From contig WJIV01000088.1 in the NCBI GenBank assembly GCA_014730055.1, forward strand, positions 1 to 16,564: DNA of 16,564 bases. The letters run 5' to 3'. Below the pieces are notes generated by a model. That model ran no database searches. It worked only from the letters and a program-made list of their open reading frames with translations, and was not told the origin of the DNA. A program made the translations under genes and the position numbers. This document shows positions 4,569 through 15,900 of this stretch, one piece after another. How positions within the stretch are numbered: position 1 is the stretch's first letter; each line of letters starts with the position of its first letter. The stretch comes from Candidatus Bathyarchaeota archaeon. GTDB lineage: Archaea > Thermoproteota > Bathyarchaeia > TCS64.

Positions 4569-5135
4569 CTATTCTGTGGAAAGGGATTGGAACTTGTGTT
4601 TGCTTAGCCTGTCCAGTTCGGCGATGTCTTCCTCTGTTACTAATTGGTGCTGTAGTCCGTGATGCCATGGGAATACTAAGAAGAACCACCTGTTGAGACA
4701 ATCCACATAATTAAACCAGCTCCATAGGAGGTCGTTCAATTCTTCTTTAGTCTGTACCGTGGGTAAGGCTTCGTAGATGGCTTGTGAGAACTTGTAGAGA
4801 TTTGGTACGTTTAGCCAAGGTGCTGGGCAGCCCGGTGGATTCTGGTTTCCCAGCATCTTGGCGATGTGAAGGGTGCTGTACTGCCATATCTTTTTACAAG
4901 TCTCCAAGGGTATTTCTGGGTCTTTTATTGCGGCGGTTACAGTGGGTTTTGCGCATTTCCAGCCCATGGCCTGGGTGTCGGCGATGAGGAATAGGAGGTT
5001 GCCGAGTACCTGTCCCCCTACATTAGCACCGCTGGGGTAAATGCCCTTCCTGCACATGGTCACCTCTGTGGGTTCCTCCCAGAAGATGCGATCTATGTCA
5101 TCCTCTATCATGTCCTTGACCTTTTTCCAGTGCAT
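4569..5135 (-). CDS. Helical protein resembling the C-terminal domain of cucumopine synthase-related proteins
   Basis: 188 residues, predicted mostly helical and soluble. Recognisable stretches are DDIDRIFWEEPTEVTMCRKG (12-31), PSGANVGGQVLGNLLFLIAD (34-53), TKEELNDLLWSWFNYVDCLN (129-148) and FPWHHGLQHQL (155-165). From memory these match the helical-bundle domain fused to a cyclophilin-like domain in cucumopine synthase and bacterial relatives (E-I-W-x-EP, PSGA, TKEEY, FPWG-G). Here the two domains are separate genes: the partner at 5135-5590 is directly upstream and overlaps by one base (TAATG), with a strong SD site, so equal expression and a complex are likely. Cucumopine synthase condenses histidine with 2-oxoglutarate into an opine; whether this protein does anything similar is unknown. 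No metal-binding motif is obvious despite five scattered cysteines. Confidence in the gene is high, in the family moderate. Confidence 0.6.
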   Translation of the reverse strand: MHWKKVKDMIEDDIDRIFWEEPTEVTMCRKGIYPSGANVGGQVLGNLLFLIADTQAMGWKCAKPTVTAAIKDPEIPLETCKKIWQYSTLHIAKMLGNQNPPGCPAPWLNVPNLYKFSQAIYEALPTVQTKEELNDLLWSWFNYVDCLNRWFFLVFPWHHGLQHQLVTEEDIAELDRLSKHKFQSLSTE

Positions 5136-5590
5136 TAGGTGTACCTCCTTGCGGTCATTGTGATTGGAGTATGCAGCAGGTAATAGTGTTTCCAGACCGT
5201 CTCACCTGCTTTTCTAAGCTGAGGGAACTGGTTCTCCGGTATCTTTCCGACCACTGCCCCACTTACCGTTATGGGCTCCGTACAGGGTCCATAGTAAAGG
5301 CTGATACCTCCATAACCTCCGTGAACACTATAGTTCACGCTTCCCACAGGTATCTCACAGAACATCCTTTTATTTCGTCCAAGGGCTGTACCAGTCTTCA
5401 CAGGGTGCCTTGGTGGTCTAGCTGCTGCACTGAACTCTTCACCGGTACTAACAGGGTGCCTGCAAAAAAGTTTAAGTGGATTCTCTAAATTTTCCCATAG
5501 TAACTCTGTTAATTCTGGTTCTTCCTCTCCCAGGAGTCTAGCTGTGAGCGTAGTGTTGATGGTTGGAAATTCCAGTCGGATCTTTCTCAT
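5135..5590 (-). CDS. Cyclophilin-like fold protein (DUF3830 / cucumopine synthase N-domain-like)
   Basis: 151 residues. The opening MRKIRLEFPTINTTLTARLL is a beta-hairpin, followed by a helix EEPELTELLWENL, then STGEEF (48-53), NKRMFCEIPVGSVNYSVHGG (73-92), GGISLYYGPCTEP (94-106) and VVGKI (113-117). This order matches cyclophilin-like small barrels of the DUF3830 type, where a 'SGE' loop and a 'G-I-YYG--EP' strand line the pocket; the comparison is from memory. A long loop PPRHPVKTGTALGRNK (59-74) is inserted. It is the first gene of a two-gene operon with the helical partner downstream, a layout equivalent to a split cucumopine synthase-like protein. The ATG at 5590 has a TATA-like box 20-27 bp upstream and no SD, so a leaderless mRNA is likely. 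Cytosolic; reaction unknown. Confidence 0.6.
   Translation of the reverse strand: MRKIRLEFPTINTTLTARLLGEEEPELTELLWENLENPLKLFCRHPVSTGEEFSAAARPPRHPVKTGTALGRNKRMFCEIPVGSVNYSVHGGYGGISLYYGPCTEPITVSGAVVGKIPENQFPQLRKAGETVWKHYYLLHTPITMTARRYT
5143..5150 (-). promoter_or_regulatory. Strong Shine-Dalgarno site inside the upstream gene
   Basis: AAGGAGGT on the minus strand ends seven bases before the ATG at 5133-5135. It fixes that start and shows translational coupling with the overlapping gene, in contrast to the apparently leaderless operon start at 5590. Confidence 0.7.
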
Positions 5591-6175: not shown

Positions 6176-7237
6176 ATGAAAGTAGAACTATATTTGATTC
6201 TCATGAAAAAGGGCAAAAGCTCGATACTGATCCTTCTAATTTTAGTGGCTCAAAATGTCCTGACTGCAAGCTGCCTTACGACGGGAGATTATCATTTAAA
6301 GTTCTGGGGAGGAGGACTAAATATCTGGCTCTACTACCCAGAGGACGCTAGCCCAGGAGACTCCGTAAACCTTAACGTGTATATAGTCTCATCAAAGTTT
6401 CCCAGGGGAAACCATGTAGGTGAGGTATACCTCAAGGTCACAGCCCTAACCACCTCTTCCCAGATCACCCTCTTCGACCAGAAACTCATAACCGATACCT
6501 ACCTGCAATCAGGGTCCACTTTCAACCAGACTATATCTGTAACCTTACCATCGGATGCCAGATGGTATCTATCTGTCCAGATGGACACTGTATCCTATCA
6601 ACAGGACTTGACGAACCGTCAGGAAGCCCATGTGACGCTCGACACAACAAAAATAGTAACTTCCACTTACAGTGAACTCCAGAATAATATACTGGAATAT
6701 CAGGCACTGTACAAAACGCTGGACCAGAAATATGAGGACCTAAGCCAACAACTCGAAAATTTACAAACCCCAGTTACAGGGGACTGCACACAGCTTCAGT
6801 CAGACTATCTTCAACTGATGCAGGAATTTACTTCTTTGACTACCCTATATAATGAACTGCTATTAAGTAACCAGACTAAGGCTGATGGGGATCTTCAGAA
6901 CGACCTGCAAGAGATGGAGCAAATATACGCTAATCTTCTAGAAGAATTCGAAGTAACTATTATCAACATGGATGAGTTAATCCACGAAAAAGATGTAAAT
7001 TTAGCGGAACTTGAAGAGGAAACTCAATTCTTATTAGAGGAAAATCAGAAAATGGAGGACGAAATAAAATCTCTTGAATTTGAACTTGAATCTGAAGAAA
7101 ATGCCGCTGAGGAATTAGAAGTTATTCGAGGGAAATTAAACAGCGCAGTGGGTCTCAGGAATATCTTAGCACTCTTAACATTACTATCATTTGGGGCTTC
7201 TGGTTTTATATTTTACAAGTATAGAAGTATCGTTTAG
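6176..7237 (+). CDS. Secreted, membrane-anchored coiled-coil protein
   Basis: 353 residues (or 344 from the in-frame ATG at 6203, MKKGKSSILILLILVAQNVL, which gives a better signal peptide). Order: signal segment about 10-31 with a possible cleavage near TASCLTTG; a beta-rich domain about 37-155 with Ig-like strands (DSVNLNVYIVSSKF, GEVYLKVTALTTSS, RWYLSVQMD); a long coiled coil about 160-322, acidic and rich in E, L and Q; and one C-terminal helix about 328-346 followed by the short tail YKYRSIV. The topology is therefore outside the cell with a C-terminal anchor, an antenna-like stalk. No enzyme motif is seen and I do not recognise the family. It starts the rightward series ending in the CHAT and 1019-residue genes, but a T-run (7247-7252) and a fresh promoter follow it, so linkage is by position only. 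Confidence 0.75.
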   Translation: MKVELYLILMKKGKSSILILLILVAQNVLTASCLTTGDYHLKFWGGGLNIWLYYPEDASPGDSVNLNVYIVSSKFPRGNHVGEVYLKVTALTTSSQITLFDQKLITDTYLQSGSTFNQTISVTLPSDARWYLSVQMDTVSYQQDLTNRQEAHVTLDTTKIVTSTYSELQNNILEYQALYKTLDQKYEDLSQQLENLQTPVTGDCTQLQSDYLQLMQEFTSLTTLYNELLLSNQTKADGDLQNDLQEMEQIYANLLEEFEVTIINMDELIHEKDVNLAELEEETQFLLEENQKMEDEIKSLEFELESEENAAEELEVIRGKLNSAVGLRNILALLTLLSFGASGFIFYKYRSIV

Positions 7238-7294: not shown

Positions 7295-7313
7295 GTAGAA
7301 AAAATTATAGAAT
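7295..7313 (+). promoter_or_regulatory. Promoter copy 1 of the duplicated OB/TM gene
   Basis: GTAGAAAAAATTATAGAAT places a purine-rich BRE-like stretch directly before TTATAG, 38 bp before the ATG at 7333. The same element recurs at the same distance before the paralogue. Confidence 0.5.
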
Positions 7314-7332
7314 CCAAGAAGATAACTAGATC

Positions 7333-7914
7333 ATGTCTAATGCGGCGAATAGAGTATCTAAGCTTCTAGGATGGATTGTCACATCTATAATAGTTGGCTT
7401 CTTGCCCGCTTATATAATAGCAAATAGCGATGTGGGATTTCCCAGTCCTTGGCTACTCTGGATTATTCTATCTATAATTGTATCGATACCTATAAGACGG
7501 TTAATCTACGGAAAAGATATTTCAATGGGAAGGGGAAAATGGGACGCACCGGAGAAAATTCGTTCACAAGTTGTTAACACTCCCCAGTTCGTTGGAAGGT
7601 TCGATAGAGAAAAAGGTCTCCTAGATTCAACAGCAAGAATGGTAGAACCAGTAATGCCAGATACCCAGATAGCTTGGATGGGACAACAGAAAAATATTAA
7701 CATTACCAGATTCAGAGGTGAAATCTTAGACCAAAACGGATCCCCACTCGAATACATCTCAGTAGAACTAAAGGGAGAACAGAAAAAGTGGGTAGGGTCT
7801 CTAGTTGATGGAGATAGAGTCAGAGTAGAGGGAAAGGTTGAAGATGATGGCATTCTACACGCTAAGAACGCCTTTAACTACTCCACGAATTCATGGGTAG
7901 GGGAAACTAAATAA
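7333..7914 (+). CDS. Membrane protein with C-terminal OB-like domain, copy 1
   Basis: 193 residues. Two membrane helices (about 12-31 and 38-56) are followed by a basic RRLIYGK stop-transfer stretch, a linker with NTPQFVGRFDREKGLLDSTA (82-101), and a compact beta domain (about 124-190) containing RFRGEILDQNGSPLEYISVE, DGDRVRVEGKVEDDGILHAK and FNYSTNSWVG. The strand pattern 'G-I--NG-PL--V-VE-KG...GDRVRVEG' is typical of small OB-fold barrels, so the C-terminal half probably faces the cytosol and binds nucleic acid, a ligand or a partner. Copy 2 at 7990 is nearly identical in the last 110 residues. The gene has its own promoter (TATA centred about 27 bp upstream, leader near zero). It sits upstream of the CHAT protease, suggesting a sensor or substrate for it. 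Family unknown. Confidence 0.7.
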   Translation: MSNAANRVSKLLGWIVTSIIVGFLPAYIIANSDVGFPSPWLLWIILSIIVSIPIRRLIYGKDISMGRGKWDAPEKIRSQVVNTPQFVGRFDREKGLLDSTARMVEPVMPDTQIAWMGQQKNINITRFRGEILDQNGSPLEYISVELKGEQKKWVGSLVDGDRVRVEGKVEDDGILHAKNAFNYSTNSWVGETK

Positions 7915-7951
7915 AAAAGGATTGTTCAAGGATAAGTTCAAATTTTTAGAA

Positions 7952-7970
7952 ATAGAAAAAGTTATAGAAT
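7952..7970 (+). promoter_or_regulatory. Promoter copy 2 of the duplicated OB/TM gene
   Basis: ATAGAAAAAGTTATAGAAT lies 38 bp before the ATG at 7990. It matches the element before copy 1 at 17 of 19 positions and at the same distance, so the duplication carried its promoter. It would also drive the CHAT gene. Confidence 0.5.
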
Positions 7971-7989
7971 TAATGCAAGTTTTTTAATC

Positions 7990-8568
7990 ATGGCAAAAGT
8001 AGTAAAATTACTAGGGTTATTAGTAATTTCCATAATAATAGCATTCATACCAACCTTCATTATTGCTAACTCTTTTAAGTCGAGCATTGGAAGCACATCG
8101 ATGCCTTACTTTTTATGGGGAATCTTAAGCATAGTTATTACATTATCCTTGAGAAGGCTGTGGAGTAAAGGGTTAAAAAGGGAAACTGGTTCCTGGGAAT
8201 CCCCTGAGCAGATGAGGGCTCAGGTAATTAATACCCCTCAATTTGTGGGTAGATTTGATAAAGATAGAGGTTTACTTGAATCCACTGCGAGAATGGTAGA
8301 ACCTGATAGGATCCAGTATCAAACAGTCTGGATGTCTCAACCCAAAGAATTATCAGTAATAAGATTCAGGGGGGAAATATTAGACCAGAATGGCTCTCCC
8401 CTCGAGTATATTCCAGTTGAAATCAAAGGAGAAAACAGGAAATGGGTGGGAAATATAGTTGACGGGGATAGAGTCAGAGTGGAAGGGGAAATCGAAAAGG
8501 ATGGTATACTACATTCAAAAACCGCTTTCAACTACTCCACCAACTCTTGGGTTGGAGAGAGAAGATAA
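7990..8568 (+). CDS. Membrane protein with C-terminal OB-like domain, copy 2
   Basis: 192 residues, paralogue of the protein at 7333-7914. Two membrane helices (about 7-27 and 38-55) have little identity to copy 1 outside a few positions (SII, IIANS, LW-ILSI). The cytosolic part is strongly conserved: NTPQFVGRFDKDRGLLESTA (81-100), RMVEP, RFRGEILDQNGSPLEYIPVE (125-144), DGDRVRVEGEIEKDGILHSK (158-177) and a shared end AFNYSTNSWVGE. The longer loop between the helices (SFKSSIGSTSMP) differs most, as expected if the outer face contacts different things. The TAA is followed after three bases by the CHAT gene, with GGAGAGAG near the end of this gene as its SD, so the two are one transcript. This ties the OB/TM pair to the protease. 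Confidence 0.7.
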   Translation: MAKVVKLLGLLVISIIIAFIPTFIIANSFKSSIGSTSMPYFLWGILSIVITLSLRRLWSKGLKRETGSWESPEQMRAQVINTPQFVGRFDKDRGLLESTARMVEPDRIQYQTVWMSQPKELSVIRFRGEILDQNGSPLEYIPVEIKGENRKWVGNIVDGDRVRVEGEIEKDGILHSKTAFNYSTNSWVGERR

Positions 8569-8571
8569 CAG

Positions 8572-9645
8572 ATGCCTGGATACAGACTGGAAATAAAATT
8601 TGAGGATGAAGCATCTGAGATAACACTAATAGGACTAAAACGTAATTATTGTGGAGCCTTAAAATCATCAAGTTCATTCACTAGGAGCCTTGCTAGTTTA
8701 TACTATGGGACAGAATTCTCTAATGAAGCACTGGAACTGGCAGAGGAAGTGGAGAAAAAGTTTCTACCCCAAGGTAGCATAAAGCATTATGTATCAGCCT
8801 GGCCAAACTGGATCAAAGCCCTGGGACAGTATATCTTCAATGAAATAATTCCTAGTGATGTTTCTAAAGTAATTCGAAGTCTTCCTAGAGATAGCCTTAT
8901 TCAACTTGAGATTGGTGAAAATGTCTCTCATGTCCCATGGGAACTAATGCATACAGGGACAGACTTTCTCTGCTTAGAACATATAATTGGTCGAGTTAAA
9001 GGGGACATGGGAGACTCCCCTAAACCAGCAAGTGGTCCTATACCTATGCTGATGGTTGCTGATCCTACCGGCGATCTTTATGGCGCTCAAAACGAGGCAA
9101 ACTATATCATAAGTCAACTCCGTGGCTCTAATCTAAGGATCTCACGATACGGAGCCGAGATAAGGAAAAAAGATTATCTTCAACTTTTAGAATCAGGAAA
9201 ATACCGCATAGTACACTATTCTGGTCACTCAGCCAGCAGCACTGATCCGGGTAAGAGTCATCACTTTTTCTTAGATGGACCATGCTACGCTGAGAATATT
9301 GAGGCTCTGGATATGATATCTCCACCTTTCCTAGTTTTTTCCAACTCCTGTCAATCTGCCGAGGATAGCCTTGAGAAGGAGGAGACTGGAAATACCTCAT
9401 TAGCAGGTGCTTACTTGAAGGCAGGGGTAAAGGGATGTATGGCAGCCATATGGTTGGTGAGTGACCTAGGAGCAAGCAACTTTGCCTCAGATTTTTATCG
9501 TTTCTTGCTTTTTGGTGCTTCGCTTGGAGAAGCAGTTCTCAGAGCTCGTAGGGCAGCTTTCAAGAGATGGGGGTACCAGGACTTTATCTGGGGATCCTAT
9601 ATACTCTATGGAAATCCAGAGGTAAGAATGGTATTGAGAAATTAA
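8572..9645 (+). CDS. CHAT-domain cysteine protease (caspase/separase fold)
   Basis: 357 residues. The CHAT domain fills about 110-355: LPWELM-like VPWELMHTGT (121-130), the conserved LCLEHIIGR, the core MLMVADPTGD (159-168), a linker helix NEANYIISQL, the catalytic His219 in IVHYSGHSASS, the catalytic Cys260 in LVFSNSCQSAED, GAYLKAGVKGCMAAIWLVSD (279-298), and the closing WGSYILYGNPE (340-350). Both catalytic residues are intact, so an active peptidase is likely. The first 110 residues are a small beta/alpha region I do not recognise; there is no TPR array, unlike the CRISPR-linked TPR-CHAT. Known CHAT proteases are usually switched on by a partner and cut a specific protein, often in immunity or cell-death modules. 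The partner is probably encoded next door: the OB/TM gene ends three bases upstream, and the 1019-residue protein follows after 100 bp. Cytosolic. Confidence 0.88.
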   Translation: MPGYRLEIKFEDEASEITLIGLKRNYCGALKSSSSFTRSLASLYYGTEFSNEALELAEEVEKKFLPQGSIKHYVSAWPNWIKALGQYIFNEIIPSDVSKVIRSLPRDSLIQLEIGENVSHVPWELMHTGTDFLCLEHIIGRVKGDMGDSPKPASGPIPMLMVADPTGDLYGAQNEANYIISQLRGSNLRISRYGAEIRKKDYLQLLESGKYRIVHYSGHSASSTDPGKSHHFFLDGPCYAENIEALDMISPPFLVFSNSCQSAEDSLEKEETGNTSLAGAYLKAGVKGCMAAIWLVSDLGASNFASDFYRFLLFGASLGEAVLRARRAAFKRWGYQDFIWGSYILYGNPEVRMVLRN

Positions 9646-9745: not shown

Positions 9746-12700
9746 GTGTTGGTCGTGGATAAGATAGAGGTCTCTAGGGATGCATTGGGTAGAATAGAAT
9801 CCATCGATAGAAACTGGGCAAATAGAGAGTACAGGCGTCTTTCCCCAAAAGCCAGAAGGTTATTCGATAACGAGGTTAACAAGATATTCTGGCTAAAAAA
9901 CCCTGAAAGATATGATAAGAAACTCGATCCAGCTAGACCAGAGGACGCAGCTTACCGTGATAAATGGATAAAAATAAGTCACAGCCTTATTGGAGGCACA
10001 GGATCACAGTACTGGGAGAAAAAAGTAAAAGAAGATCAAGTCCTCAGACGGGAAGCAGATAGATACTCTGAGAAGTTACTTGAATCCTTGGACATACAGA
10101 AGACTAGGGAAAAACCCTTAACCTCAACAGAAAGGGCAGCAAGAGGGATCCTCAGGCAGGAGTTCACTGGGGAGGAATTTGTTCAGTATGTAGAAAAATC
10201 ACTCAAAGAGCCTTATGCTGAGCCAAAACAAGTCGCCTTCAACATTGTCCGGTACGCTGAACATAGGCATTTGGTAAATGCTTGCAGAGATCCTGTCGCA
10301 AAGGAAAAGATATTCTGGCTCCACGATCTCTTAATTTCTGATCCAGATAACAAAGAACATATTCAACAGGCTAACAGGATAGTGGCCGCTGTGGGTAACT
10401 TATCTGATCCTAGCACAGGCTTATTGGATAAACCGTATATCTTTCCAGCTCAGTTTACCCTCTTCAACAGCTCCCATATCACCGCGAGACTTACAGAAGA
10501 CAAAAAGATATGGGTTAAGCTAAACCAGCACTCGACTGACGGGCATCCAGAAGGCCTGTCAGCAGGGATAGAAGCCTTCACTACAGGCATAACGCTCGAA
10601 CCTCATGAATGGGTCCGATTCAAACTTTATGATGAGGGAGGGATTACAATCTGCAGACCAGCAATTTATCTCCTCCAACTCTCCAACAAAAGCACAAGTG
10701 AAACCTATTCAAATATGATCAATGTTGGGTCCTTAGGACTTCCTGGAGGTCCTCTTTTACGTGTCGGAGGAATTGTGGGAAGAGGAGCGAGCAGAGCTGT
10801 CGTAGCCCTAAGCAGGTTAGAGAAAGCTGCAGATATTCTTGCCAACGGGTTCATACTAGGCAATATCGTGGTAAGGGAAAATAGAGGTTGGCTAATTGAA
10901 AATTATGGAGATAAGGGAAGAAGATTTATTGAGTACTTTGATATCGCAGCGACTGTAGCCACCTTTTACGGACTCGGAAAAGCAATGAGTACACCCGTGT
11001 TGAGAAAATCCCTCGAGCACATGACGAAAAACTGGGATGATATCAAATCAAGTGGGTTCAATCCGGAAGATGCTTCGAAGATATCCCAAATTGATAAAAC
11101 TGTAAACGAGTTTAAGGCAGTACTAAAAGAATACGAAGGGATAGACGACGCTACCAAAGCGATTGATGAGGGAGCTGAGAGATCTGTTCGTTTTGACGAC
11201 TCCGTCTCTAGTGTACGGAGCGAAAGATCAAGGGTGAGGGAAGCTACACGAAGTCTTGATAGAATGGAGAGCACTAATAGTGTTTTAAGAAATATTGAGA
11301 CAAATCCAGATTACGTAGATTGGGTATGGAACAGAAATATTACAAGTAAAGAGTTTAGAAACTGGACAAACACCCTACCCGAAGAAACGAGAGCAGACAT
11401 TTTGAGACTTCTCAAAGATACATCCTCACCAGAAAGCTTAAGGATCAAACGTTTCGTTCTAAGGGATGCTGCCCACGAGATTAGAGTGAACAAAGAATTG
11501 AGAAAAATGGGAATTGACCAGCTTCATGGAGATTTTATTGGACCGGGTAACAAAGCAAAGCCTGGAATCGCTGAGATTCTATCAAGAAATGCCCAAAAAG
11601 GGGACGAAGTTGTGGATGCCGCCGTTAAAGCCCACGGTGAGGGAAGAGTTCACCATAACCCGGTTACAGCTGATGATTATCTGCACCAAGCCCTAGACCA
11701 GTATGATGCGGTTAGAGACCCACTTCGAGCAACAGAGGGCTATGGTTATCGAAAGAGTACAATGGAACATGAAGATATTAGAAAGATCTTCGTCACTAAC
11801 GAGGAAAACATCTACAAGAAAAAAGCTATGGAAGCAATATTAGATTACAAAGAGAAAGGAATAGAACCAAGCAAGGTTAGAAAAGAATACCAGGACTTTT
11901 TCGTTAACGCAAAAACTCAAGAACGCATTACCCCGAGAGATGGAACCCAGCCGAGTCCTGAATACTCAACAACTCAGCTTCAACCGAAAAAAGACTTCAA
12001 TGGTTTATCACAGACCAAACCTCCGCTTCCATATTCTAAAATAAATGTGAAGTACCTCGGTGATGACATAGCAGATAAACTTAATCAAATGGGAGTGGAT
12101 GAAAAACTCCTTGATGAATATATATGGAGATTGAACTGGGAATCCTCCAAAGCTGATCCAACAGAGATAGCTCTAGGAAGAGTGCAGGAAGGAGTAAAGA
12201 AAACCATCAATGAGCAAGTTAATACATCGCTAAGGTTGGGAGAGAACCTATCCAGTAAACTTGTTAGATATGGGTATGATCCCAGTGATATTTCAGCTTC
12301 AATTAATGAACTCTCTGAAAAGGGAATTCGCCCGTCCCAGATAAGGGAAACACTCAGAAAAGAGACTCTCTTGATGGACTATCTTAGAGATCAGCTATAT
12401 GGAGGGTCCCAAGTTGACGCCAGAATCAGTATGATAGTTTCTGATGGAAACGTGAGAAGCGCCATTAAACAGAAACTATGGGAAAACATGGTTGAGGAGT
12501 GGAACCATAATAACCCAAAATTTGGTCCTGGAGCAGAGAGACTAGCAAAATTCTCTGATGAAGCTGAGCAAATGACTGGAAACATCGAGAGAAAAATTCT
12601 AGGAGGTGGTGGATTTTCCTCAGGAGCGGTTATTACACAGATAAGAAAAGAGAAGAAAGAACCACTAACAGAGGCAAAAGAAGAAAAACGAAAAACGGAT

Positions 12701-12805
12701 ACGGCAGAACAAAGGAAACTCCAAATAAGGGAAACAACAAAACAAGCTCAGCAGAAAAATATTAGTGAAACTAAAAAACTGAAGCATAATAAATCCTTCT
12801 TTTAG
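9746..12805 (+). CDS. Large protein with DUF4157/injection-system-cargo-like N-terminal half
   Basis: 1019 residues. Residues 44-85 (VNKIFWLKNPERYDKKLDPA, then RDKWIKI) resemble the 'VN--FW--(H/N)P-L...W--IRD' segment seen in DUF4157-type proteins linked to contractile injection systems and polymorphic toxins. The resemblance goes on at GITLEPHEWVRFKLYDEGGI (281-300), PAIYLLQLSN (305-314), a Gly-rich stretch 328-352, and ENRGWLIENYGDKGRRFIEY (378-397) plus FYGLGKAM. This match is from memory and needs a profile search. Residues from about 420 to 940 are helical and unrecognised. The last 70 are a Lys/Glu/Gln-rich, probably disordered tail. No signal peptide and no nuclease or other catalytic motif is visible. 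GTG 9746 is used; GTG 9755 is an alternative. It may be a cargo, a toxin with an unknown tip, or a substrate of the CHAT protease encoded just upstream. Not recognised at family level. Confidence 0.65.
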   Translation: MLVVDKIEVSRDALGRIESIDRNWANREYRRLSPKARRLFDNEVNKIFWLKNPERYDKKLDPARPEDAAYRDKWIKISHSLIGGTGSQYWEKKVKEDQVLRREADRYSEKLLESLDIQKTREKPLTSTERAARGILRQEFTGEEFVQYVEKSLKEPYAEPKQVAFNIVRYAEHRHLVNACRDPVAKEKIFWLHDLLISDPDNKEHIQQANRIVAAVGNLSDPSTGLLDKPYIFPAQFTLFNSSHITARLTEDKKIWVKLNQHSTDGHPEGLSAGIEAFTTGITLEPHEWVRFKLYDEGGITICRPAIYLLQLSNKSTSETYSNMINVGSLGLPGGPLLRVGGIVGRGASRAVVALSRLEKAADILANGFILGNIVVRENRGWLIENYGDKGRRFIEYFDIAATVATFYGLGKAMSTPVLRKSLEHMTKNWDDIKSSGFNPEDASKISQIDKTVNEFKAVLKEYEGIDDATKAIDEGAERSVRFDDSVSSVRSERSRVREATRSLDRMESTNSVLRNIETNPDYVDWVWNRNITSKEFRNWTNTLPEETRADILRLLKDTSSPESLRIKRFVLRDAAHEIRVNKELRKMGIDQLHGDFIGPGNKAKPGIAEILSRNAQKGDEVVDAAVKAHGEGRVHHNPVTADDYLHQALDQYDAVRDPLRATEGYGYRKSTMEHEDIRKIFVTNEENIYKKKAMEAILDYKEKGIEPSKVRKEYQDFFVNAKTQERITPRDGTQPSPEYSTTQLQPKKDFNGLSQTKPPLPYSKINVKYLGDDIADKLNQMGVDEKLLDEYIWRLNWESSKADPTEIALGRVQEGVKKTINEQVNTSLRLGENLSSKLVRYGYDPSDISASINELSEKGIRPSQIRETLRKETLLMDYLRDQLYGGSQVDARISMIVSDGNVRSAIKQKLWENMVEEWNHNNPKFGPGAERLAKFSDEAEQMTGNIERKILGGGGFSSGAVITQIRKEKKEPLTEAKEEKRKTDTAEQRKLQIRETTKQAQQKNISETKKLKHNKSFF

Positions 12806-12855: not shown

Positions 12856-15800
12856 TTAAGGAAAACTAACCTCGTGAGTATTAATTAACTCATAGAGATT
12901 ACTCATAACCTGGTCCACATGACGTTTCTCAAAACTCTCCAGCGTGTAACATTTCTGTAGAGCATAACAGAGAGCTATTTTGTTTAATGCCTCATCGGTA
13001 AGCCCGGCTACAAGAGTAGAAGCAACGTTAAAGCAGTGCTTGTAAAGTATTTCCCACATATCAGATCCCCCCTCATTAATAGTCTCAACGAAGATATTGT
13101 GATAAAATTCATCATCCAGACTCTTTTGGAGACTGTATCGATATCTGCATGTTCCGTCATCACATATATTTCCACAGAAACTCTCAGGTTGTTTCCCATG
13201 AACTAGGCTTAGAAAAGTCTTAGAAAATGAATTTATTTTCCCTTCATCAAGTTCAAGACGTCTCTCCTTTATATAATTGGATAAAGTATCCACATAGAGA
13301 TCAAGGAAATTTGATAACACCTTTGACTGTTCATCATAAGTCCAGTGGTATTTTGAGCCTAGATATCCGAAAAAGTTTTCGGCTCCCTGGATTGCAGCGC
13401 AGATTTTCACTCCAATGGGGTTACCGCTAATTCGAGCCTGGTCATTTCCCGTCTCAAACATCTGAATTAAAAAATCCTCGTAGCCTATATTTTCGACAAG
13501 TGATAAGACTAGTGGGTGGTACGCGTTTCGGATCCTGTAATCTTCTCTTATTTCCTCACCTACATCCTTGTATAAGCATACTTTACTGCAGAAGACTGGA
13601 CAAGACAGATAAGGCGAGATATAATGATCATCCCCAAGATATGTACTCATCTTTTCTTGAATTAACAAGTCCTCATCAAGTTCTGTGATATCGTCAAGCT
13701 TTGCATATGGAACCTGTATATTATATGCTCCGTCGTCGCCATCACTGTAGACTACAGCTTCACCAACGGATAAAGTTGCAACGATGTCGGCTTCCTCATT
13801 CTTTATGTTCATGGATGAAGCCATTACCCTTCGATCATCCTCCGAGACGATCCTGTGCATTACTTTTAGGTTGGTATTCTTCACGACATCTGATGAAAGC
13901 TTTGTAGGTATCTGCTCCGCTATTAGGAATCCCTCACCATAAGCTCTAATCTCAGATAGAATATTGGTGAAAGTCTCAACCGCCTTTCCCTTCATATCAC
14001 CTTTAAATGCGTTATCTTTATCCGTATTACCTAGAAGCCTGTGAGCTTCCTCAATGACTGTAACATGGCCCAAGTCCTTTTCCTCAGAGAATCCTTGGGC
14101 TACATAGTACTCATACATCATTGTTAGTACTAGCCCCATCATGAAGGCTTTCTCCTCGTCATCACCTAAAGTCTCAAGCTCCAGTATAGTAGGACGTTTC
14201 AGGAGGTTTTCGAAGGACACAGAGCTTTTAGTATCAAGCATAAGACCTTTTCCACCAATTCTCAGACTGTTTAACCTGGTCTTCAGGGAAGATTTCAACT
14301 CCATCGTCGTCTCAGGGCTATAGCCAAGCTCGTCCACAACATCATCAACCTTATTGTACAGATCCGTCAGTGTCGGGTAAGCGTTAATGTGGACCCCCCG
14401 GGAGTTCCTGTTAGAGGTTAGATCCCACCCCTTATCGCGATAGATCTCGTAAAGACAGCGCTCAAGGACGTGAGGTAGTGGTCCCCACATGTAAAAGCTG
14501 GCATTAAATACAGACTTAAGCAGATCAAGGTGAGTCTGAACCGAGATCCCTTCGTGAACCTTGAACGGGTTCAGCCTGAAAGGTGAGACGTTATTATCCC
14601 CTAGAGTAAACACTTGAAGCTTGTCGCTGAAAACATCACTATAAAGCAGCTTTCGGTACTCAGTCTTCGCAGGCTCCAGCACTAAAAAAGGTATATCCTT
14701 CCAGATGAGATCCCTCAACATGTAAAATAGGGTATTAGTCTTGCCACTTCCCGTTCCACCAACAATTAACCCATGTTTCTTCAGACCCTTCACAGGCACC
14801 TTATAGTAAGAACTAAGGCGTTTACCCTGATCAAGAACCTCACCAACGTTAATCCCATCTTCCTCTTCCTTAGAAACGTTGAACCTGACATAGGGCATAA
14901 CTTTGAACCCTGGAAACTCCTGACTTGGAAGCTGTATAAGATTAGCCAGGTCACTGGAAGCTAAGATGTTGGAGTACATGTAAGGCCACTTGAACTGCCC
15001 TGGTGATGCTGGGGCAGGGTTCAGTATTAACCCCGGCTTGGCGTATCCACCAGTTAATTGCAGAGTCCTTATCCTATCTGGCACACTTTCCCTACCAGAG
15101 AAAGCAGACTTGGCAAGTGCTTTAAGCTGGTCCAGTGTATCAGGTCTATCTGCATACATGAAAAAATTTGAGACCCATAAACCCTGAGACTTGGACCTCT
15201 GAAGCTTCTCAAGATACTTCTCCAGCAGAGCCTTGTACTGCCTAACTGTGGGATTCTCCTGTCCTACATGCCTCTCTGATTCAAGGATAATTCTAATCTC
15301 ATTCAGCACCATATTGAATAAGGAGTTTATCCCCTCATTTTCCATAGGACTACCAACAACAACGAACCCACAGCCGCGACCACTTATCCCTCTCATAAGT
15401 CTCTCAATGTTAGCGAAATCTATACGCTCCTGTAAGATCTTCTCCGATGGAGCTCCTGTCATAACACCCATATGGTTAAAAGCTGAAAGTCTGGATAACA
15501 TTGCTTCACCTTTAACTGATGTCAAGTCTAGGCCGTGGAAAGAACTCTCCAAACAGGTCTTCAGAATGTCAGCGTTAAGATTGAGAGATGACCCATCCTC
15601 AGAGAAGGTACCAAAAATAATCTCCAATCCACCATCTTTACCGCAGGCGGAGAAAAAAACTGGGACGCCACTCTCAAAAAGCCCTGAGACTAGATCTTCC
15701 ATCACAAGACTGATAGAAAACGATTCCTCCCTTCTCTCACCCCAAAACTTCGGTAAACCCTTAATATGAAAGAGACGTAAATCCCCCAAGCTCTTCATGT

Positions 15801-15900
15801 TTATTTTATTAGAATTAACTACTCCTCTTAACTGATCAAGAAAATCTCTCTCAAAGTACTGTATATTCTTGGGAGAAAACCCCTGCCTTTGCATATGCAA
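12856..15900 (-). CDS. HerA/VirB4-type ATPase (DUF87-like) with C-terminal cysteine clusters
   Basis: 1014 residues; TTG 15900, or better ATG 15894 (residue 3). The N-terminal 370 residues match the long pre-ATPase region of this group (LRLFHIKGLPKFWGERREES, 41-60; DRPDTLDQLKALAKSAFSGR, 251-270). The RecA-like core has Walker A GGTGSGKT (381-388), the hallmark VLEPAKTEYRKLL (407-419), Walker B VTVIEEAH (613-620) and the HerA/FtsK sensor region AEQIPTKLSSDVVKNTNLKV (661-680). HerA-type enzymes form hexameric ring motors that move DNA or protein; VirB4-type relatives power secretion. After the core lies an unusual tail with C-x3-C-x3-C (Cys767, 771, 775) and C-x3-C-x4-C (Cys909, 913, 918), a likely metal site. 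No nuclease (NurA) gene is adjacent. It is convergent with the 1019-residue gene, so a functional pair is possible but not proven. Cytosolic, perhaps docked to the membrane. Confidence 0.85.
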   Translation of the reverse strand: MHMQRQGFSPKNIQYFERDFLDQLRGVVNSNKINMKSLGDLRLFHIKGLPKFWGERREESFSISLVMEDLVSGLFESGVPVFFSACGKDGGLEIIFGTFSEDGSSLNLNADILKTCLESSFHGLDLTSVKGEAMLSRLSAFNHMGVMTGAPSEKILQERIDFANIERLMRGISGRGCGFVVVGSPMENEGINSLFNMVLNEIRIILESERHVGQENPTVRQYKALLEKYLEKLQRSKSQGLWVSNFFMYADRPDTLDQLKALAKSAFSGRESVPDRIRTLQLTGGYAKPGLILNPAPASPGQFKWPYMYSNILASSDLANLIQLPSQEFPGFKVMPYVRFNVSKEEEDGINVGEVLDQGKRLSSYYKVPVKGLKKHGLIVGGTGSGKTNTLFYMLRDLIWKDIPFLVLEPAKTEYRKLLYSDVFSDKLQVFTLGDNNVSPFRLNPFKVHEGISVQTHLDLLKSVFNASFYMWGPLPHVLERCLYEIYRDKGWDLTSNRNSRGVHINAYPTLTDLYNKVDDVVDELGYSPETTMELKSSLKTRLNSLRIGGKGLMLDTKSSVSFENLLKRPTILELETLGDDEEKAFMMGLVLTMMYEYYVAQGFSEEKDLGHVTVIEEAHRLLGNTDKDNAFKGDMKGKAVETFTNILSEIRAYGEGFLIAEQIPTKLSSDVVKNTNLKVMHRIVSEDDRRVMASSMNIKNEEADIVATLSVGEAVVYSDGDDGAYNIQVPYAKLDDITELDEDLLIQEKMSTYLGDDHYISPYLSCPVFCSKVCLYKDVGEEIREDYRIRNAYHPLVLSLVENIGYEDFLIQMFETGNDQARISGNPIGVKICAAIQGAENFFGYLGSKYHWTYDEQSKVLSNFLDLYVDTLSNYIKERRLELDEGKINSFSKTFLSLVHGKQPESFCGNICDDGTCRYRYSLQKSLDDEFYHNIFVETINEGGSDMWEILYKHCFNVASTLVAGLTDEALNKIALCYALQKCYTLESFEKRHVDQVMSNLYELINTHEVSFP

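Follow-up and report, generated by a model that had tools for sequence, protein, structure and literature searches.

We analysed a stretch of 16,564 nucleotides from a Candidatus Bathyarchaeota archaeon (contig WJIV01000088.1), hereafter the window, which appears to be the entire contig, and describe here three adjoining genes on its forward strand. Two of them encode tandem paralogues that combine two membrane helices with an OB-like tail, OBTM1 (7333-7914, 193 amino acids) and OBTM2 (7990-8568, 192 amino acids), while the third encodes a CHAT protease with the dyad His219/Cys260 and without a membrane helix (8572-9645, 357 amino acids). Only three bases separate the OBTM2 stop codon from the ATG of the CHAT gene. 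An earlier note on this DNA, made from the letters alone, gave the coordinates, the gene starts and this spacing correctly.

A promoter-like motif (GAAAAAATTATAGAAT; 7298-7313, forward strand) starts 35 nt 5' of the OBTM1 ATG, and an identical motif (7955-7970, forward strand) starts 35 nt 5' of the OBTM2 ATG; the pattern GAAAAA.TTATAGAAT matches exactly at both positions. We take this motif to be an archaeal BRE/TATA element (B recognition element and TATA box) with a leaderless start. With up to two mismatches, the window contains three matches, the third at 5480-5495 on the reverse strand; by comparison, shuffled controls had a mean of 0.21 matches, and three matches were reached in 1 of 200 shuffles. 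The CHAT gene lacks a copy of the motif and is probably co-transcribed with OBTM2. The earlier note had described the protease as fused by operon to the membrane protein; the genes indeed closely adjoin, but they are separate genes, and a promoter-like motif precedes OBTM1 and OBTM2 individually.

In a protein search, OBTM formed a sharply bounded family of 92 clusters, the weakest of which had an E-value of 2.1e-30. Neither OBTM1 nor OBTM2 matched a Pfam family at cut-off or a PHROGs model, and searches of the PDB by sequence returned matches at chance level only (best E 0.56, eIF2 alpha); none of the libraries searched has a name for the family. The helix count took in the 77 of 92 proteins with at least 185 residues, and among these the first hydrophobic peak was present in 76 and the second in 73, while none had a peak past residue 80. 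In the AlphaFold2 model of OBTM2 (mean predicted local distance difference test, pLDDT, 88.5; predicted template-modelling score 0.62), two helices span residues 2-28 and 38-59, a linker at residues 61-66 has a pLDDT below 50, and the strands lie within residues 88-190. Fold comparison of the predicted tail returned OB-fold proteins and, together with the helix peaks in the family, bears out what the earlier note described, tandem paralogues that each carry two membrane helices and an OB-like tail. The modelled inter-helix loop has only about nine residues, an argument against a distinct sensor domain on the outside. In all 45 alignment rows, lysine plus arginine outnumber aspartate plus glutamate at the N terminus; after helix 2 they do so in 44 of 45, whereas for the outer loop this holds in 4 of 45. 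By the positive-inside rule, this charge pattern supports that the OB-like tail would face the cytoplasm.

The same note had stated that the tails are conserved while the membrane halves drift, and this is what we observed both between the two paralogues and across the family. OBTM1 and OBTM2 are identical in 55 of 68 columns of the tail and in 32 of 74 columns of the membrane half (with a gap in 9 of the 74), and the nonsynonymous divergence is 0.11 in the tail versus 0.51 in the membrane half. In the alignment of 45 members, the mean column entropy is 0.67 in residues 84-102, 1.01 in 121-148 and 0.93 in 149-192, compared with 2.49 in residues 103-120, which form a variable OB hairpin, and 2.08-2.19 in the helices. 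We considered recent gene conversion as the source of the alike tails; however, the synonymous divergence was not computable (returned as -1), which we took as saturation, and the tail DNA is 73% identical across 207 nt. Because the synonymous divergence is read as saturated, recent gene conversion was rejected.

The CHAT protease matched PF12770 well over the Pfam cut-off (E 4.1e-20, 72.8 bits versus 24). His219 and Cys260 are kept in 49 of 49 homologues, in agreement with the catalytically intact dyad described in the earlier note, and protease activity is predicted. None of the 49 homologues has a 19-residue window with a mean hydropathy of at least 1.8. In the structural model, residues 262-275, a loop beside the catalytic cysteine, have a pLDDT below 50. 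In structure comparison the CHAT model matches Csx29 and the protease domain of separase, a eukaryotic cohesin protease, along the full length; by contrast, a sequence search of the PDB with the CHAT profile gave no match at E 0.01. A sequence alignment with PDB chain 3bij, although weak (E 0.34), places the His and Cys motifs in register.

Co-occurrence of the two families was measured by comparing OBTM and CHAT clusters by the size of the longest contig of each cluster. There were 85 distinct sizes for OBTM and 49 for CHAT, of which 16 were common to both and 15 physically possible; the common size of 1035 (P0055, P0128) was dropped because two genes need about 1.56 kb. When the CHAT sizes were shifted by up to 10% in 2000 trials, a mean of 0.59 and a maximum of 6 sizes were in common. 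All 15 co-occurring CHATs are within the 39 best-scoring homologues (P0084-P0122), whereas the next eight (P0123-P0130; 38-49% identity over partial length) have only the impossible size in common with OBTM and the last two have none. Moreover, the distances among OBTM proteins correlate with those among CHAT proteins (r 0.50 over 14 contigs, size 2968 being left out because P0138 is partial with 107 amino acids), and 0 of 5000 permutations gave a correlation as high. At the level of sequence distances, this linked divergence shows joint inheritance and not contact. The earlier note had proposed to check whether OBTM homologues lie beside CHAT genes; this check, which was run in part, gave 15 common contig sizes but also many contigs with one family only. 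In total, we conclude that it is well supported that OBTM and CHAT are a real recurring two-family module and not a chance grouping. Four of 132 proteins carry an organism name, three from a Thermoproteota archaeon (on the 17156-base contig) and one from a Candidatus Bathyarchaeota, and the module probably belongs to uncultured archaea.

Besides the window, seven contig sizes had two OBTM clusters. An OBTM tree was built from 84 of 93 rows, i.e. proteins of at least 160 amino acids; the root was placed at the midpoint, and of the 81 inner branches 16 are open. In this tree there are two large clades. The pairs at sizes 2272, 9585 and 17156 are split between them, one member to each; both members of the 4642 and 2499 pairs fall in one of these clades, and both members of the pairs of the window, 2098 and 8076 fall in the other. 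The long-branch joins P0081 with P0137 and P0136 with P0139 are unsure. Judging from this distribution, paired copies arose more than once, and because the pairing arose more than once, two unlike OBTM subunits are suggested to be useful. An xPFG motif in the outer loop was tried as a marker of one OBTM clade and was rejected as not clean (14 of 29 inside versus 2 of 63 outside the clade).

With a probability of roughly 40%, we propose that OBTM serves as an OB scaffold anchored in the membrane, to which the soluble CHAT protease is recruited and by which it is gated. The OB tails would form a membrane-bound oligomeric platform that would bind CHAT, the product of the gene immediately downstream, and hold it inactive. 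A signal arriving via the variable OB hairpin at approximately residues 103-120 or via the membrane hairpin would release or order CHAT, in which the loop beside the catalytic cysteine is predicted with very low confidence. Once released, CHAT would cut a target, possibly OBTM itself, at the linker of low confidence (61-66). Such a module would most likely be used as a stress or defence switch.

Several points weigh against this proposal. Only within the window was the order of genes read directly; elsewhere it was taken from equal contig sizes. Furthermore, 21 of 32 OBTM sizes of at least 3 kb have no CHAT cluster of the same size, and 13 of 24 CHAT sizes have no OBTM, 9 of these 13 being among the 39 nearest CHATs. 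Because one longest contig per cluster was reported, partners can be hidden, and the unmatched sizes neither prove nor exclude OBTM without CHAT; for example, OBTM1 of the window is absent under size 16564, the longest-contig size given for OBTM2 and CHAT, and is apparently in cluster P0014 (99% identical, contig of 1209). Low pLDDT alone is not evidence of regulation. Finally, the genes to the left of the module, which in Pfam are a glyoxalase, two major facilitator superfamily transporters, a cucumopine-synthase-like domain and one protein without assignment, give no established defence context, and the ATPase at 12856-15900, which is matched by PADLOC HerA models (best E 1.5e-15), is on the opposite strand from the module.

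Among the known systems compared, Craspase (the TPR-CHAT protein Csx29 together with Csx30) resembles the module in that the CHAT model matches Csx29 along its length; however, the CHAT protein of the window has only 357 residues and no TPR match (Pfam gives CHAT alone), and there is no CRISPR-like array in the window. In the excerpted text of PMC10028731, Csx30 is a sigma-factor inhibitor that is cut at residues 427-429, and as described there it is unlike OBTM, a membrane OB protein of 190 amino acids. SAVED-CHAT proteins of type III CRISPR differ in having a SAVED domain, which Pfam does not find in the CHAT protein of the window. HetF (NF045509) is similarly a CHAT protein tied to the membrane and is the sole NCBIfam model matched, but the score of 37.9 bits is far under the cut-off of 1200. 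According to PMC8406250, HetF has its transmembrane and TPR parts in its own chain, while the membrane helices here are in the separate OBTM proteins. DdvA has 991 residues and is a transmembrane anti-sigma factor by its PDB title; by contrast, no sigma-factor family was found in the 11 window proteins scanned. The earlier note's statement that the locus does not match known CHAT modules agrees with the PADLOC search, in which OBTM1, OBTM2 and CHAT each had no matching family with an E-value of 1 or below.

OBTM could instead be both substrate and effector: CHAT would cut the stretch that joins helix 2 to the OB domain, and the freed hairpin would oligomerise and damage the membrane with a gasdermin-like outcome. 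The predicted low-confidence linker before the OB domain would suit such a cut and, by analogy, cleavage of Csx30 by its partner, the CHAT protease Csx29, takes place in a small flexible loop, as described in the same excerpt of PMC10028731. However, by eye the linker varies in sequence and length in the alignment without a common cleavage motif, and the helices, at an entropy of 2.08-2.19, are among the least conserved parts of OBTM; we consider this mechanism unlikely, though with some real chance. It is a little harder to believe that CHAT is switched on when single-stranded nucleic acid binds to the OB tails at the membrane, so that the module would sense incoming or exposed DNA or RNA; the mean charge of the OB domain is 15.9 lysine plus arginine versus 16.6 aspartate plus glutamate, i.e. 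net near neutral, which argues mildly against it.

Short NfeD proteins have two helices and an OB fold, and NfeD pairs with stomatin. By analogy, OBTM and CHAT could be a housekeeping pair for membrane quality control, like NfeD, a membrane OB protein, beside a stomatin or protease; the outline of OBTM resembles short NfeD, and the leftward neighbours include ordinary transport and metabolic genes. However, at E 0.1 the 45 OBTM members together matched 20 Pfam families, none of which is NfeD, and scans of genome contigs (with OBTM2 alone and the CHAT alignment as queries, from few peptide patterns) gave no archaeal locus, unlike what would be expected of a widespread core function. We therefore regard a housekeeping pair as quite doubtful. 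Slightly more doubtful is a hitherto undescribed immune or death switch of archaea, based on an OB-fold hetero-oligomer that would be anchored in the membrane, resemble single-stranded DNA-binding protein and respond to incoming single-stranded nucleic acid or to damage of the membrane by directly unleashing CHAT, without CRISPR, TPR or a second messenger. A chance neighbourhood of unrelated genes would fit the many contig sizes found for one family only, but it is very improbable given the linked divergence and the 15 possible common sizes, when shifted CHAT sizes gave 0.59 on average and never more than 6.

Concerning the other genes of the window, a cucumopine synthase C-terminal helical bundle domain at 4569-5135 (PF18631, E 3e-14, over cut-off) is unexpected for an archaeal-looking contig. 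A coiled-coil protein of 353 amino acids is encoded upstream of the module on the same strand (6176-7237); it has hydrophobic N- and C-terminal stretches and weak coiled-coil-type matches, the best of which is PADLOC LmuB (E 6.3e-06). A protein of 1019 amino acids (9746-12805) had no match over cut-off in Pfam or NCBIfam and none in PADLOC, PHROGs or plasmids. The ATPase, which is HerA/FtsK-like and has 1014 amino acids (reverse strand), matched DUF87 over the Pfam cut-off; its nearest NCBIfam models, NF033849 and the DNA translocase CedD, were both under cut-off. HerA-like ATPases are not confined to defence. We did not count the HerA and LmuB matches as defence context, yet they do not exclude defence. 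Consistent with the earlier note, Pfam found no TPR or gasdermin family over cut-off in the 11 window proteins, although divergent gasdermins may escape it, there was no CRISPR-like array among the direct repeats in the window, and neither Cas7-11 nor a CRISPR array was seen there.

In wider searches, a scan of genome contigs with OBTM2 (a single-sequence query with few peptide patterns) gave no relative, and the same kind of scan with the CHAT alignment gave 24 distant loci, none of which is titled archaeon (few peptide patterns). Viral contig scans with CHAT, the CHAT alignment and the OBTM alignment gave no match, and OBTM2 had none in plasmids and phages. The distant bacterial CHATs (L001 8485-12034; L002 500-3771; L003 8409-11026; L004 2525-7583; L006 7279-12256) sit behind a sigma-factor-like gene: sigma-region models matched in 5 of 5 genes tested, with L001 under cut-off. 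A zf-HC2 anti-sigma-like gene near these CHATs matched at L001, L002 and L006 and not in the genes tested at L003 and L021. Among the matches listed from the open-access literature, which leaves most subscription papers and all bioRxiv preprints outside, no title or abstract start described a membrane OB protein as the partner of a CHAT protease, and no paper joined a CHAT domain with Bathyarchaeota.

To our knowledge, CHAT proteases with known partners are few, and the solved CHAT structures matched here are from bacteria or eukaryotes. A soluble CHAT protease together with an unnamed, apparently archaeal family of membrane OB proteins would offer a small, testable system for how CHAT is restrained and released at a membrane.
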